Assembly: GCA_001914785.1 (NCBI GenBank)
Contig: MNDE01000157.1
Coordinates: forward strand, 1 to 55,316
Length of the DNA: 55,316 bases
Origin: Acidobacteria bacterium 13_2_20CM_57_17
GTDB lineage: Bacteria > Acidobacteriota > Terriglobia > Acidiferrales > UBA7541
Reading direction: 5' to 3'
Below, piece by piece: positions 17,398-28,896 of this stretch. Position 1 is the first letter of the stretch; the number at the start of each line of letters is the position of its first letter. Both the position numbers and the translations under genes were made by a program. The notes under the pieces are model-generated. The model made no database searches. It was not told where the DNA came from and saw only the letters and a list, made by a program, of their open reading frames with translations.

Positions 17398-17575
17398 GTT
17401 TCAATTTGCAGGCAAGGGTAGCGGGGAAGGCCGTGTGAATCGGCCGCGGTCCCGCCACTGTAATCGGCTCAAAAGCCGTAAGCCAGGCCACCCTCCCGTG
17501 CCGCAGAGGGCCGCGCTCTTCGCGAGAAAGAGCCATGCCATCCGCCCCAAGCTGTCTCGTGGGGCTTTTTTGTTG
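17398..17575 (+). promoter_or_regulatory. Cobalamin (B12) riboswitch upstream of btuF
   Basis: The leader carries the conserved GCGGTCCCGCCACTGTAA core (17445-17463), the hairpin CGGCTcaaaaGCCG and a B12-box-like AAGCCAGGCCACC (17480-17492). It is preceded by GGGGAAGGCCGTGTGAATCGGCC, the usual GGGAA/GGTG-AA-TCC region. The box has GCC where GGAGACC is usual, a mild deviation. The aptamer is followed by a terminator hairpin with six T's, so control is most likely by transcription attenuation. The genes downstream are vitamin B12 uptake genes, as expected. Confidence 0.88.
17544..17571 (+). terminator. Riboswitch-controlled intrinsic terminator before btuF
   Basis: GCCCCA at 17544-17549 pairs with TGGGGC at 17560-17565 across a ten-base loop and is followed by TTTTTT. 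It lies between the B12 aptamer and the btuF start, the position expected for an expression platform. Confidence 0.8.
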
Positions 17576-20646: not shown

Positions 20647-20819
20647 TCGTTAACCCCAACCCTGCGGCCTTGTGCCGCAGACCACAATCACCGCGAACTT
20701 CGTGCTCGGGAAGACGGGCAACCGCTTAGCGGTTGCACTTGAATTGTTGATTCCAGTTCCTTCGGAATCGTCAGCCAAGTAGAAAACCGTCGCCGCCGCG
20801 CGACTGTAGGGCGGATTCA

Positions 20820-20945
20820 GTGTATGCGCGGGCCACTGCGGGCCAGTCGCTCCATCGCTGGGCGACACCGCGGGAAGGCCCCGCAACGGTCCTCATTCGA
20901 AAGGGCCGGAGCTACCGCCAAGCCAGGAGACCGGCGAAGTTCGCA
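20820..20945 (+). promoter_or_regulatory. Cobalamin riboswitch (variant core) upstream of btuB
   Basis: A perfect B12 box, AAGCCAGGAGACCGGC, lies at 20920-20935. It is preceded by CGCGGGAAGGCCCCGCAACGGTCC (20869-20892 region), which resembles the GGGAA...CCGCAAC core of proteobacterial-type B12 riboswitches but lacks a clear ACTGT and P-stem order as in the first copy. A 7-bp hairpin (GTGCGAT/ATCGCAC, 20949-20970) sits between the box and the btuB ribosome binding site and may be the expression platform. The following gene is a TonB receptor, the most common target of this riboswitch. Confidence 0.75.
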
Positions 20946-21013
20946 GCCGTGCGATTCATTTTGATCGCACAGGTCAACCTTCAACTCCCGCGCGAGAGGG
21001 AGCGGAGGATAAA

Positions 21014-23203
21014 ATGAATAAGACTCTTCTTCGAACTGCCTTTTTCCTCTTCGCAGTTTCTGTAGTCAGCTTTTCCTTGCAAGCCCAAAGCAATTCATCC
21101 GAGGCCCGCCTTTCCGGCCGTGTTACCGATGCTTCCGGCTACACCATCGCGAGCGTAAAAATCACCGCTCAACCTGAAAATGCCGCCTTCCCTGCGGCTG
21201 CGGCTTCGGCTTCGACTTCCACGGTCGCAGACGGCGCCTTTTCTCTAATCTTGCCTCCCGGCCGCTATCGAATTCGTTTCGAACGCGCCGCTTTCGTCCC
21301 TCGCGAATTTTCTCTTTCGCTGGCCGCTTCAGATTCTCGTACTCTCGACATCAAGCTCGAAATCGCGCAAGTCTCCGAAAATGTCGTCGTCACCGCCAAC
21401 TCCCAGCCTCTCGAAATCAGCCAGACTCCTGCTCCCGTCGATGTCCTCACGCCCGACGAAATCCGCCAGCGTCAGCTTGTCTCGGTCGCCGATGCTCTCG
21501 GCACTCTTTCCGGCGGCGCTATCGCTCGCACCGGCCGCGAAGGAGGTCTCACCACCTTTTTCCTCGATGGCGGCAACTCCAATTTCACAAAATTCTTCGT
21601 TGACGGCACGCCACTCAACGAACCCGGCGGCTTCCTCAATCTTTCCAACCAAACCCTCGACAACATCGACAAGCTCGAAGTCGTCCACGGCGCCGAAAGC
21701 GCTCTCTACGGCACGGATGCGGTTTCTGGCGTCGTCCAACTCTTCAGCCATCGCGGCGCCACGCGCGTTCCCGAACTCAATCTCTTCGCCGAAGGCGGCA
21801 GCTATTCCTCCGCGCGCGGCGGTGGTCTGGTCGCTGGCCTCCTCGGCGGATTCGATTACTCCCTCGCGGGCTCCTATTTCCAGACCGACGGCCAAGGATC
21901 CAACGACGCTTTCCTCAATCGCAGTTTCTCCGGCAACCTCGGCTACAGCTTCAGCGACTCCAATCATTTGCGCCTTACGGCCAGAAGCAACTCCAGTTTC
22001 GCCGGCCTTCCAGGGCCTATCCTTTTCCTCCCGCCCAGTCTCTCTCAATTCGAACGTCTCAAGCTTCTCCTCCTGCATCTCAGCTGGGATTTCCGCAACG
22101 GCCCGCACTGGATCCATCGCTTCAGTGGCCATGAAAACCGTACGCTGGACACCAACGCCAATCCTCCATCCTTCACTTTCGTCGACCAATTCAATCGCGC
22201 CGGTCTTCAAGAGCAATCCACCTATACGTTCCGCACCGGTGCTATCGCTGCTGGCTACGAATACGAAGTCGAGAACGCTTATCCGAGCCTCATCACCGGA
22301 TTCCACGCGCGCCGTAACAACCAGGCTGGCTTTCTCGACGCCCGCTGGCAACCGATTGCGCGCCTCACCCTCAGCGCCGGAGCACGCGCCGAGGCCAACA
22401 CGACTTTCGGCACCCGCGTTGTGCCCCGGGCCGGCGTTGTCTACGCTCTTCACAATGGCCGTGGCTTCTGGGGCGACATGCGCGCACGTTTTTCCTACGG
22501 TCAGGGTTTCAAGGAGCCCGCTCTTGAGCAATCTTTCGGCAGCGATCCTTGTTTCCCAGGCAATTCCTCCCTTCGCCCCGAGCGCAGCCAAACGTATGAC
22601 GCCGGTCTCGACCAGTTTCTCGCTGGTCAGCGCCTTCGTCTTTCCACCACCTACTTCAATAATCGCTTCCGCGACATCGTCAGTTTCACTTTCGATCCCA
22701 CAACGACTACCGCCTGCCAACAAGGCACCGGCACGTATTTCAACACCGATCTGGCCCGTGCCCGCGGCGTCAATCTTTCTGGCGAATTGCGCCTTCGCCG
22801 TTGGCTCAGCCTTGATGGCAACTACTCCCATGACGACACGCGCGTCTTGAAATCCCCCAACGCCTTCGATCCCGTTCAGATGGCCGGAAATCATCTTCTT
22901 CGCCGTCCCGTCAACTCGGGAAGCATCATCCTCAATACTTCCTATCGCCAATGGAATCTGAATCTTACCGGCTATTTCTCTGGCCTTCGCACCGATAGCG
23001 ATTTCCTCGGCTTCGGCCTGACTCACAATCCGGGCTATGCGCGCTTCGACATCGCCACTACGTATCTCATCGCTCGCGGTATTTCCTTCACCGGCCGCGT
23101 CACCAATCTTTTCGACAAGCAATACCAGGACGCCCTTGGCTTCCCGGCGCTTCGCCGCGATTTCCGTCTCGGTCTCAACTACCGCTTCACCGGCAGGAAC
23201 TGA
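21014..23203 (+). CDS. btuB: TonB-dependent vitamin B12 receptor, BtuB-like, with carboxypeptidase-regulatory N-domain
   Basis: The 729-residue outer-membrane protein has a signal peptide (about residues 1-24, ending SLQAQ), an Ig-like carboxypeptidase regulatory domain (about 30-105, GRVTDASGYTIASVKI), a plug (about 115-225, with the IDKLEVVHGAESALYGTDAVSGVV motif) and a beta-barrel ending FRLGLNYRFTGRN. The C-terminal LFDKQYQDALGFPALRRDFRLG is typical. Acidobacterial TonB receptors often carry such an N-domain. The ATG has GGAGG six bases upstream. Corrinoid as substrate is inferred from the riboswitch and from btuFCD; sequence alone would allow a siderophore. Confidence 0.88.
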   Translation: MNKTLLRTAFFLFAVSVVSFSLQAQSNSSEARLSGRVTDASGYTIASVKITAQPENAAFPAAAASASTSTVADGAFSLILPPGRYRIRFERAAFVPREFSLSLAASDSRTLDIKLEIAQVSENVVVTANSQPLEISQTPAPVDVLTPDEIRQRQLVSVADALGTLSGGAIARTGREGGLTTFFLDGGNSNFTKFFVDGTPLNEPGGFLNLSNQTLDNIDKLEVVHGAESALYGTDAVSGVVQLFSHRGATRVPELNLFAEGGSYSSARGGGLVAGLLGGFDYSLAGSYFQTDGQGSNDAFLNRSFSGNLGYSFSDSNHLRLTARSNSSFAGLPGPILFLPPSLSQFERLKLLLLHLSWDFRNGPHWIHRFSGHENRTLDTNANPPSFTFVDQFNRAGLQEQSTYTFRTGAIAAGYEYEVENAYPSLITGFHARRNNQAGFLDARWQPIARLTLSAGARAEANTTFGTRVVPRAGVVYALHNGRGFWGDMRARFSYGQGFKEPALEQSFGSDPCFPGNSSLRPERSQTYDAGLDQFLAGQRLRLSTTYFNNRFRDIVSFTFDPTTTTACQQGTGTYFNTDLARARGVNLSGELRLRRWLSLDGNYSHDDTRVLKSPNAFDPVQMAGNHLLRRPVNSGSIILNTSYRQWNLNLTGYFSGLRTDSDFLGFGLTHNPGYARFDIATTYLIARGISFTGRVTNLFDKQYQDALGFPALRRDFRLGLNYRFTGRN

Positions 23204-24720: not shown

Positions 24721-26214
24721 ATGCCGAAATCCGCTCCAGAGGCCGCCTCCATCGCACCTGACGTGCTCGCCAAATACGAGCCCGTCATCGGCCTCGAGGT
24801 CCACGTGCAGCTCCTCACGCGCACAAAAATCTTCTGCGGCTGCTCGACGCGTTTTGGTGATCCGCCCAACACCAATGTCTGTCCCGTCTGCCTCGGCCTC
24901 CCCGGCACTCTGCCCGTGCTCAACAAGCGCGCCGTCGAGATGGCCATGCGCGCCTCGCTCGCCCTGAACTGCACGGTCCACGACCATTCCCGCTTCGCTC
25001 GCAAAAACTATTTCTACCCCGACCTCCCCAAGGGCTACCAAATTTCCCAATACGAATTGCCGCTCGCCACCGGTGGCTGGCTGGAGATCGAAGCCAACGG
25101 CGCAAGAAAACGCATCGGCATCACGCGCCTCCATCTCGAAGAAGACGCTGCCAAAAATCTCCACGAAGGTTTCTCGCAATCCGCCACCAAGGCCTACATT
25201 GACTACAACCGCTGCGGCACACCGCTCAGCGAAATCGTCTCCGAGCCGGACATGCGCACGCCCGAGGAGGCCTACGCCTACCTCACCACGCTCCGCCAAA
25301 TCATGCTTTATACCGGCGTCAGCGATTGCAATATGGAAGAAGGCTCGCTCCGCTGCGACGCCAACGTCAGCGTGCGCCTGCGCGGCTCAAAAGAATTCGG
25401 CACCAAGGTCGAAGTAAAAAACCTAAATTCTTTCCGCTTTCTGCAAAAAGCGCTCGAATACGAAATCGAGCGCCACATCGGCGTCCTGGAATCCGGGGGC
25501 CGTCTCTTCCAGGAAACGCGCCTGTGGAATCAAGCCGAAGGCCACACCGTCTCCATGCGTTCCAAGGAAAAAGCTCACGACTACCGCTATTTCCCAGAGC
25601 CTGACCTTCTCCCCGTCCACATCAGCTCGGCTTGGCGCGAAGAAGTCCGCCGCGCACTTCCCGAACTCCCCGAAGCCAAGCGCGCCCGCTTCGTCGCCGC
25701 CTACGGCATCACGCCCTACGACTCCGAAGTTCTCACCAACACCCCAGCTCTCGCCGATTATTTCGAAGCCGTCGTCAAAGCCGGCGCTCTCGGCAAAGCT
25801 GCCGCCAACTGGATGCAAACCGAACTTCTTCGCGGCCTGAAAGATTCCGGCAAGGAGATCAGCGCGAGCCCCGTTTCGCCTGCGGCACTCGCAGAGTTGG
25901 TGACGCTCGTCGAATCCGCCAAAATCACTGGCGCCGTCGCCAAGAAAGTTTTTGCCGCCATGTTCGAATCCGGCCGCACTGCCTCCGAGATCGTCGCCGC
26001 CGAAGGCCTCGCCGCCCAAGTCAGTGACGCGGCCATCGAGCAAGCCGTCCGGGAAGTCATCGCGAAAAATTCGGACAACGTCGCCAAGTTCAAATCCGGC
26101 AACGAAGGCGTCTTCAAGTTTTTCGTTGGCCAGGTCATGAAGGCCACGCGCGGCCAAGCCAACCCGCAAGCCGTCAACGACATCCTCCGCAAGCTCCTTT
26201 CGCAGGCAAAGTGA
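24721..26214 (+). CDS. gatB: Aspartyl/glutamyl-tRNA(Asn/Gln) amidotransferase subunit B
   Basis: The 497-residue protein matches GatB along its length: YEPVIGLEVHVQLLTRTKIFCGC, the zinc-binding Cys pairs (CGCSTRF and NVCPVCLGLPG), FYPDLPKGYQISQYELPLA, CNMEEGSLRCDANVSVR, a hinge and the C-terminal YqeY-like domain (about residues 345-495). GatB moves ammonia from GatA to the phosphorylated side chain of misacylated Glu-tRNA(Gln) or Asp-tRNA(Asn). gatA and gatC are not in the window, so the complex is encoded at separate loci, as is common. The ATG has no ribosome binding site and lies next to a -10, so the mRNA may be nearly leaderless. Confidence 0.96.
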   Translation: MPKSAPEAASIAPDVLAKYEPVIGLEVHVQLLTRTKIFCGCSTRFGDPPNTNVCPVCLGLPGTLPVLNKRAVEMAMRASLALNCTVHDHSRFARKNYFYPDLPKGYQISQYELPLATGGWLEIEANGARKRIGITRLHLEEDAAKNLHEGFSQSATKAYIDYNRCGTPLSEIVSEPDMRTPEEAYAYLTTLRQIMLYTGVSDCNMEEGSLRCDANVSVRLRGSKEFGTKVEVKNLNSFRFLQKALEYEIERHIGVLESGGRLFQETRLWNQAEGHTVSMRSKEKAHDYRYFPEPDLLPVHISSAWREEVRRALPELPEAKRARFVAAYGITPYDSEVLTNTPALADYFEAVVKAGALGKAAANWMQTELLRGLKDSGKEISASPVSPAALAELVTLVESAKITGAVAKKVFAAMFESGRTASEIVAAEGLAAQVSDAAIEQAVREVIAKNSDNVAKFKSGNEGVFKFFVGQVMKATRGQANPQAVNDILRKLLSQAK

Positions 26215-26390: not shown

Positions 26391-26852
26391 ATGCTCAAAG
26401 TAGGCGCCAAAGCCCCCGCCTTCCGCCTGCAATCCGACGAGGGCAAAGAACTCGCCCTCAACGACTTCGCTGGCCAGCGCGTTCTCCTTTTTTTCTTCCC
26501 CAAAGCCAGCACTCCCGGTTGAACCATCGAAGCGTCCGAGTTTCGTGACGCAAAGAGGAAATTCGACAAGCTCGGCGTGGCCATCCTCGGGATGAGCGCT
26601 GATCCCGTCAAGGCTCTTGCTTCCTTCAAGGAAAAGCACCGACTCAATTTCCCTTTGCTCAGCGACCCAGGGCGCAAAACCATCCAGAAGTTCGGCGTCT
26701 GGCAGAGAAAACAATTCATGGGCCGCGCCTTCATGGGTATCGTCCGCAGCTCTTTCCTCATCGGCAAAACCGGAAAAATCGAGGAACTCTGGCCCCTCGT
26801 CAGAGCCAAAGGCCACGCCTCCGAAGTCCTAGGCGTCATCTCGAAAAAATAG
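26391..26852 (+). CDS. bcp: Selenocysteine-containing peroxiredoxin, PrxQ/Bcp type (in-frame TGA at codon 44)
   Basis: Reading through one TGA (26520-26522) gives a complete 153-residue PrxQ/Bcp protein: VGAKAPAFRLQSDEGKE, then VLLFFFPKASTPG-U-TIEASEFRD, LGVAILGMSADP, HRLNFPLLSDPG and a C-terminal RSSFLIGKTGKI. In this family the residue after TPG is the peroxidatic Cys, so the TGA falls exactly on the catalytic position and selenocysteine is expected. A SECIS-like hairpin lies 9 bases downstream of the TGA. The protein has no cysteine at all; the usual resolving Cys five residues on is Ser, so it would be a 1-Sec enzyme needing an external thiol. ATG 26391 has GAGGA seven bases upstream. It reduces peroxides in the cytoplasm. 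Gene callers will split or truncate it at codon 44. Confidence 0.85.
26532..26551 (+). promoter_or_regulatory. SECIS element (selenocysteine insertion hairpin)
   Basis: GCGTC-CGA pairs with TCG-T-GACGC, giving an 8-bp stem with a single bulged T and the apical loop GTT. The loop G is 18 bases after the TGA. Bacterial SECIS hairpins lie directly downstream of the UGA, carry a G (often GU) in the apical loop and, as in E. coli fdhF, a bulged U. All three features are present. Confidence 0.75.
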
Positions 26853-27094: not shown

Positions 27095-27253
27095 TTTAGA
27101 ATCAACACTTGAAGAAAAAACAGAAAATAGCGTCTCTAACTCTCTTTAAAATCAACACTTACAGAGCCCGCCCGCAAGTGTTGATTCTAAACTACTTATA
27201 GAAATACTAAATCCTTTAGATGCAACACTTACGTGAAACCCCGGGGGAGGGGG
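27095..27253 (+). repeat. Repeat element with TTTAGAATCAACACTT motifs and a G-run (copy 1; possible small RNA)
   Basis: The region downstream of the promoter at 26986 holds three direct copies of a TTTAgAaTCAACACTT motif (27095-27110, 27145-27160, 27215-27230) and one inverted copy (27176-27191). The second copy and the inverted one form an 11-bp hairpin with a 15-base loop. It ends with a GGGGGAGGGGG run (27243-27253). No open frame with a start and ribosome binding site is present. Related motifs and a mirror-image G-run occur at 51907-51990, so this is a dispersed element. It fills most of the 496-base gap between the peroxiredoxin and glycine-zipper genes. Confidence 0.6.
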
Positions 27254-28014: not shown

Positions 28015-28896
28015 CTAGAAGTGAAACACCAGTTCTTCGGAGTCCGATAATTTCGGTTCAATGTACAAATTATCGATCAACCGCGTCTTCCCGACAAAAA
28101 CCGCAAGCAGCACGTAGCAGGGTTTGCGAACGCGCACGACCGGCTCAAGTGTTTCCGCGTCAACAACTTCCGCGTAGTCCACTCGCGCGAGACGTTCCGA
28201 ATCTAGTTTGCGCCGCACACTGGATTGCAGTTGCAGCGCGTCGCGAACTCCGGTGGCAAGTTCGTCCCTTGCTGCTTCCAGCGCGCGATGCAAAACCGTG
28301 GCGGCTTTGCGTTCGTCCGCGTTCAAGTAAACATTTCGCGAGGAAAGCGCCAGGCCGTCCGGCTCGCGCACCGGCGGGCAAACCACGATTTCCGTATCCA
28401 GGTTCAAATCGCGCGACATTTGCGTGATCAGCCGCGACTGCTGCGCGTCCTTGCGCCCGAAGTACGCAAAGTTTGGCTGTACGATTTGCAACAACTTCAT
28501 TACGACGGTGGTCACGCCGCGAAAATGCCCGGGCCGCGAGCGCCCTTCCAGCCGGTCGCTCAATCCGTCCACGTTAACGTAGGTCGAAAATCCATTCGGG
28601 TAAATTTCAGCGGGTTCCGGCGCAAAGAGCGCATCCACGCCCGCGCGCTGAAGTTTTTCGCTGTCGCTTTCAAAAGTGCGCGGATATTTTGAGAAATCTT
28701 CGTTCGGGCCAAACTGTTTCGGGTTGACGAAAATCGAAGCAATCACCGGCGAGCACTCCTTGCGCGCTCGCTCGATCAGCGACAAATGTCCCGCGTGCAG
28801 CGCGCCCATCGTCGGCACCAGCCCGATGATGCGGCTCTCCGCGCGCGCTTGCCGCGCGTACTCTTTCATCCAGGCGACAGTTCGGATGGTTTCCAC
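28015..28896 (-). CDS. panC: Pantothenate synthetase (pantoate-beta-alanine ligase)
   Basis: The 293-residue enzyme shows GLVPTMGALHAGHLSLIERARKE (residues about 26-48, HxGH nucleotide site), ASIFVNPKQFGPNEDFSKYPRT, GRKDAQQSRLITQMSRDLN and GLALSSRNVYLNADER, the complete PanC signature set. It joins pantoate and beta-alanine using ATP. The start is GTG at 28896. It is the last gene of panB-dinB-panC on the minus strand, with 22 bases after the dinB-like gene, so both pantothenate enzymes are likely made from one transcript. Confidence 0.95.
   Translation of the reverse strand: METIRTVAWMKEYARQARAESRIIGLVPTMGALHAGHLSLIERARKECSPVIASIFVNPKQFGPNEDFSKYPRTFESDSEKLQRAGVDALFAPEPAEIYPNGFSTYVNVDGLSDRLEGRSRPGHFRGVTTVVMKLLQIVQPNFAYFGRKDAQQSRLITQMSRDLNLDTEIVVCPPVREPDGLALSSRNVYLNADERKAATVLHRALEAARDELATGVRDALQLQSSVRRKLDSERLARVDYAEVVDAETLEPVVRVRKPCYVLLAVFVGKTRLIDNLYIEPKLSDSEELVFHF

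Follow-up and report, generated by a model that had tools for sequence, protein, structure and literature searches.

A gene for a peroxiredoxin of the Bcp/PrxQ type at positions 26391..26852 (+) in Acidobacteria bacterium 13_2_20CM_57_17 can, with high confidence, be assigned as a selenoprotein gene; a hairpin just downstream of an in-frame UGA (codon 44) would direct SelB-dependent decoding, and the product would act by a one-selenocysteine (Sec) peroxidase mechanism. Judged from its sequence and that of its relatives, codon 44 is almost certainly read as Sec. The gene lies in a stretch of 55,316 nucleotides (the window), which is contig 155 of a 4.58-Mb genome assembly that is 77.6% complete. 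Selenoprotein status, as proposed in the original prediction, is supported by the presence of the Sec machinery, Sec/Cys pairs among homologs, a hairpin specific to the TGA forms, and purifying selection downstream of the TGA.

The reading frame and its relatives

When the TGA is read as Sec, the gene comprises 153 codons followed by a TAG stop (26850-26852), and contains a single TGA (26520..26522, +), directly 3' of the residues STPG within the segment PKASTPG-U. The TGA thus supplies the U of the peroxidatic motif PxxxTxxU. A single AhpC-TSA domain (Pfam PF00578, residues 4-132; 124.3 bits against a cut-off of 26, 3.5e-36) spans the codon, and the protein passes the NCBIfam Bcp model NF006960 (168.7 bits, cut-off 140). 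Residues P37, T41, U44, and R119 are invariant in a 12-row alignment. Among solved structures, the best matches are Bcp/PrxQ proteins (5enu, 5iph, 5iox, 5iiz), with which the fold, the active-site motif, and the Arg of RS(S/T)FLI align; their peroxidatic Cys aligns with the TGA, bearing out the original prediction that a frame complete on both sides is interrupted once, after TPG, exactly at the PrxQ peroxidatic site. Whereas those proteins carry Cys at this site, the protein studied here would have Sec and, as had been predicted, contains no Cys elsewhere. The position five residues downstream (+5), at which two-Cys members of the Bcp/PrxQ subgroup have their resolving Cys, is Ser49, encoded by TCC at 26535..26537 (+), within the hairpin described below. 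On its sequence, we file the protein as a putative one-Sec form rather than a two-Cys PrxQ.

Standard gene calling divides the gene into a 43-codon stub, as anticipated, and a separate downstream open reading frame of 91 codons. In comparisons with ten relatives, dN/dS 3' of the TGA was 0.10-0.31, a range similar to that on the 5' side, which points to purifying selection on the downstream sequence.

A search covering 399 genomes of the class recovered many homologs with exactly one TGA. Across 101 loci, codon 44 was TGA in 67, TGC in 28, and TGT in six, and no other codon was found; with duplicates removed, the 97 remaining homologs comprised 63 TGA and 34 TGC/TGT forms. The in-frame UGA is therefore paired with a Cys codon in homologs, and the argument that a chance nonsense change at this codon is unlikely has held up, as has the expectation that an alignment of relatives would be informative there: TGA, TGC, and TGT alternate. 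The same TGA recurs in independent assemblies that are 97, 88, 81, and 79% identical, which excludes a sequencing error. The nearest named relatives are soil metagenome-assembled genomes (MAGs) that bear the title Acidobacteria and in some cases gp2. In another family, one Cys form with TGT (L085, genome G108) has a hairpin-region sequence that is nearly that of TGA relatives such as L093 (G079), and its genome retains selA; the retained sequence suggests a recent change from Sec to Cys.

The peroxiredoxin gene is flanked by gatB (24721..26214, +; NCBIfam GatB, 694.9 bits), which terminates with TGA about 180 bases 5' of it, and by panC (28015..28896, -; TIGR00018, 337 bits). Both neighbors are conserved by synteny and serve here as context only. 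A btuB-like gene in the window also terminates with TGA; as TGA is thus an ordinary stop of neighboring genes, the genome-wide code is not altered. The placement between gatB and panC is shared by the window and most relatives of its family, including five Cys forms of the same genus (L042, L044, L045, L063, and L069, the last two seen as L134 and L135), so that the Sec and Cys forms are orthologs in place, exchanging at one locus. These Cys orthologs, 58-66% identical to the window protein, have TGC or TGT at codon 44 and Cys at +5, and show none of the hairpin sequence that is nearly fixed in the Sec forms.

Elsewhere in the window, two cobalamin riboswitches (Rfam RF00174) were found at 17399-17513 (+) and 20683-20953 (+), with scores of 47 and 60 bits; the second lies directly 5' of a gene for a BtuB-like TonB-dependent receptor (21014-23203). 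Between the peroxiredoxin gene and the next open reading frame, at 27100-27235, a short motif, AAGTGTTGATT/AATCAACACTT, occurs in several copies and in both orientations.

A SECIS-like hairpin and the selenocysteine machinery

The core of a SECIS-like hairpin, GCGUCCGAGUUUCGUGACGC, occupies 26532..26551 (+), and was characterized by folding, synonymous entropy, and stem-pair retention. Its stem begins 9 nt after the UGA and, numbered from that codon, pairs nucleotides 10-14 with 25-29 and 15-17 with 21-23, leaving U24 as a bulge and GUU (18-20) as the apical loop. Published constraints on bacterial SECIS elements call for a loop of 3-9 nt, a stem of 4-16 bp, a distance of 16-37 nt from the UGA, a G among the first two loop positions, and a minimum free energy of at most -7.5 (PMC13188914). 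The window element has a GUU loop, 8 bp, a spacing of 17 nt, and an energy of -12.9 kcal/mol, all within these limits. So do 62 of 67 TGA forms, 53 of which have the identical loop and spacing, and 10 of 34 Cys forms; however, of 200 control positions taken from these genes, 63 (about 31%) also pass. The published constraints are thus poorly specific, and the decisive point is synonymous constraint.

Among the 31 genus-level TGA homologs, codons +4 to +9 (GCG TCC GAG TTT CGY GAC) are nearly fixed, synonymous sites included, and synonymous entropy is near zero at most of these codons in TGA homologs only. Over codons +3 to +11, mean synonymous entropy in the 31 TGA forms was 0.36 bits versus 0.91 bits elsewhere in the gene, and the nine-codon windows around the hairpin were the lowest of the gene; the Cys forms showed no such dip (0.98 versus 1.06). 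Individual stem pairs were retained in 79-98% of TGA forms: pair 12-27 in 95%, versus 26% of Cys forms, and pair 14-25 in 79%, versus 24%. Relative to synonymous shuffles, the hairpin was more stable in TGA forms than in Cys forms (p 1.5e-5). Two-sided changes were seen at two pairs (G12-C27 to A12-U27, and A17-U21 to G17-C21), and RNAalifold returned almost no consensus structure for the whole TGA set (-0.26 kcal/mol). Covariation support for the hairpin is modest; by our reading, shifted pairings among lineages explain the weak consensus. Five TGA forms of one family, f6 (L078, L089, L092, L093, and L107), have a different downstream sequence (GCG AAC CAG TTC CGT GAC GCC) and fail the standard bacterial SECIS constraints; this sequence is possibly a variant SECIS.

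The search for selA, selB, selC, and selD that the original prediction proposed as a check found all four in the same genome. The tRNA-Sec has a UCA anticodon and scores 67.7 bits, over the Rfam cut-off; selB (362 bits), selA (574 bits), and selD (L017:1486-2565, contig 50; 348 bits) complete the set, so SelA, SelB, SelD, and tRNA-Sec are all encoded. The active-site Cys codon of selD is itself TGA (KAAGUAAKLSPG, motif AAGU), making its product a Sec-type selenophosphate synthetase. Two AhpC-TSA proteins encoded on other contigs of this genome (L123, contig 43; L126, contig 20) each have one in-frame TGA, in an FTGGU motif, and apparently an N-terminal signal-like segment, these features lying around locus position 1500-1900; both are likely additional selenoproteins.

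The TGA form is almost confined to genomes that have selA. Of 47 genomes with TGA forms checked, 46 have selA, and the sole one without a full selA match, G327, is fragmented and 85% complete; among 30 genomes with Cys forms, selA is present in 22 and eight lack a full match (Fisher p 0.0018, a value not corrected for relatedness of the genomes).

Given these elements, the hairpin would recruit SelB with Sec-tRNA-Sec at UGA 44, so that Sec would be inserted instead of termination taking place. By analogy with the family, the Sec selenolate, within PxxxTxxU and with the conserved Arg119, would then attack H2O2 or organic peroxides and form a selenenic acid, which an outside thiol (thioredoxin, glutaredoxin, or a small thiol) would reduce. 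As the chain contains no other Cys or Sec, no internal selenylsulfide can form and an outside thiol would be needed; the enzyme is probably a one-selenol peroxidase regenerated in this way.

Other readings of the in-frame UGA

That gene calling returns a stub and a second open reading frame is what a dead bcp gene would give, with the TGA as a nonsense mutation or a sequencing error. We consider this exceedingly improbable, given that (i) the TGA is kept in 63 non-duplicate homologs, independent assemblies included, (ii) the frame beyond it is open throughout the family, (iii) the downstream dN/dS is as low as given above, and (iv) the genome has a complete Sec machinery. The conservation of the TGA, together with the downstream purifying selection, rules this explanation out. 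An open frame on both sides of the codon would also be accounted for if UGA were a sense codon, read as Trp or Cys by a near-cognate tRNA or under a changed code. General reassignment is ruled out by the TGA stops of gatB and the btuB-like gene, and decoding as Trp or Cys at this one codon has very little probability: Trp is absent from the site in all homologs, the genome encodes a UCA tRNA-Sec, SelA, and SelB, and the downstream hairpin shows a synonymous constraint peculiar to the TGA forms.

Sec insertion in bacteria competes with termination, and the 43-residue stub could on that account be the main product, with Sec read-through a minor, selenium-responsive event. However, the C-terminal 109 codons are under purifying selection about as strong as that on the first 43, and the stub would lack the catalytic residue; we regard regulated termination as highly unlikely. 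Full-length decoding with Sec at codon 44 is the reading that we retain.

Sec/Cys exchange and place among known selenoproteins

A tree that omits positions 44 and 49 requires at least 15 changes of the Sec/Cys state. In the genus-level set, the residue at +5 follows this state completely: Ser in 31 of 31 Sec forms and Cys in five of five Cys forms. The replacement of the resolving Cys by Ser, part of the original prediction, therefore holds for all Sec forms of the genus but does not extend to every Sec homolog, as two of 63 keep Cys at +5 (versus 20 of 34 Cys forms in the whole set). Few independent Sec/Cys events underlie the perfect split in the genus, and a sign test on independent pairs gives a one-sided trend that is not significant (p about 0.125). 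Several separate switches to Cys within the genus are likewise not supported, since a single clade of the genus Cys forms is not rejected (p-AU 0.196).

We tentatively raise a further idea, which we think rather doubtful: that one locus switches between Sec44/Ser49, a one-Sec enzyme with an outside reductant, and Cys44/Cys49, a two-Cys enzyme, since the +5 codon lies within the SECIS and there would be mutual constraint between the RNA element and the resolving residue. In its strict form, in which a Cys codon at +5 is incompatible with the SECIS stem, this idea is weakened by the Sec homolog L100, which has TGC at +5 and yet forms a good hairpin through shifted pairing, so that any RNA constraint on +5 is not absolute.

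Sec-containing peroxiredoxins were already known in other bacteria, as the original prediction noted, and the Bcp type (COG1225, TxxU motif) is an established bacterial selenoprotein family (PMC9312934), represented by 43 genes in the data set from the Sargasso Sea (PMC1088965) and 91 proteins in 78 organisms in another survey (PMC5029168). In PMC1794560, 12 Sec peroxiredoxins are counted, and Sec use in Acidobacteriota amounts to four selenoproteins in three families; PMC12013277 gives three selenoprotein genes for Occallatibacter riparius. Our literature search found no paper dedicated to an Acidobacteriota Sec-PrxQ. The present gene shares with the known Sec Bcp-type proteins the Bcp/AhpC-TSA domain, the TxxU motif, Sec/Cys pairs among relatives, and a downstream SECIS. 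It differs in its source, as the named examples in the papers cited here come mostly from anaerobes and marine samples whereas this gene belongs to soil Acidobacteriota (gp2-type MAGs), and in having no other Cys and a near-invariant SECIS core. With PrxU of Eubacterium acidaminophilum, in which Sec is the peroxidatic residue (Sohling 2001, as cited in PMC13188914), it shares the peroxiredoxin fold and, as predicted here, Sec at the peroxidatic site, but it fails the PrxU model (NF040737 peroxi_PrxU, NCBIfam; 42.5 bits, cut-off 270).

The arrangement is thus of a kind already known, and the gene is a well-supported further Sec peroxiredoxin; its notable points are the near invariance of the SECIS core and the alternation of Sec/Ser and Cys/Cys at one locus. 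With this finding, soil Acidobacteriota gain such a protein, at a gene that routine annotation would probably reduce to a stub or a pseudogene. The alternation of Sec and Cys orthologs among near relatives offers a natural series for examining what is gained and lost when Sec replaces Cys, and the same series could address whether a SECIS inside a gene constrains neighboring residues, such as the resolving Cys.
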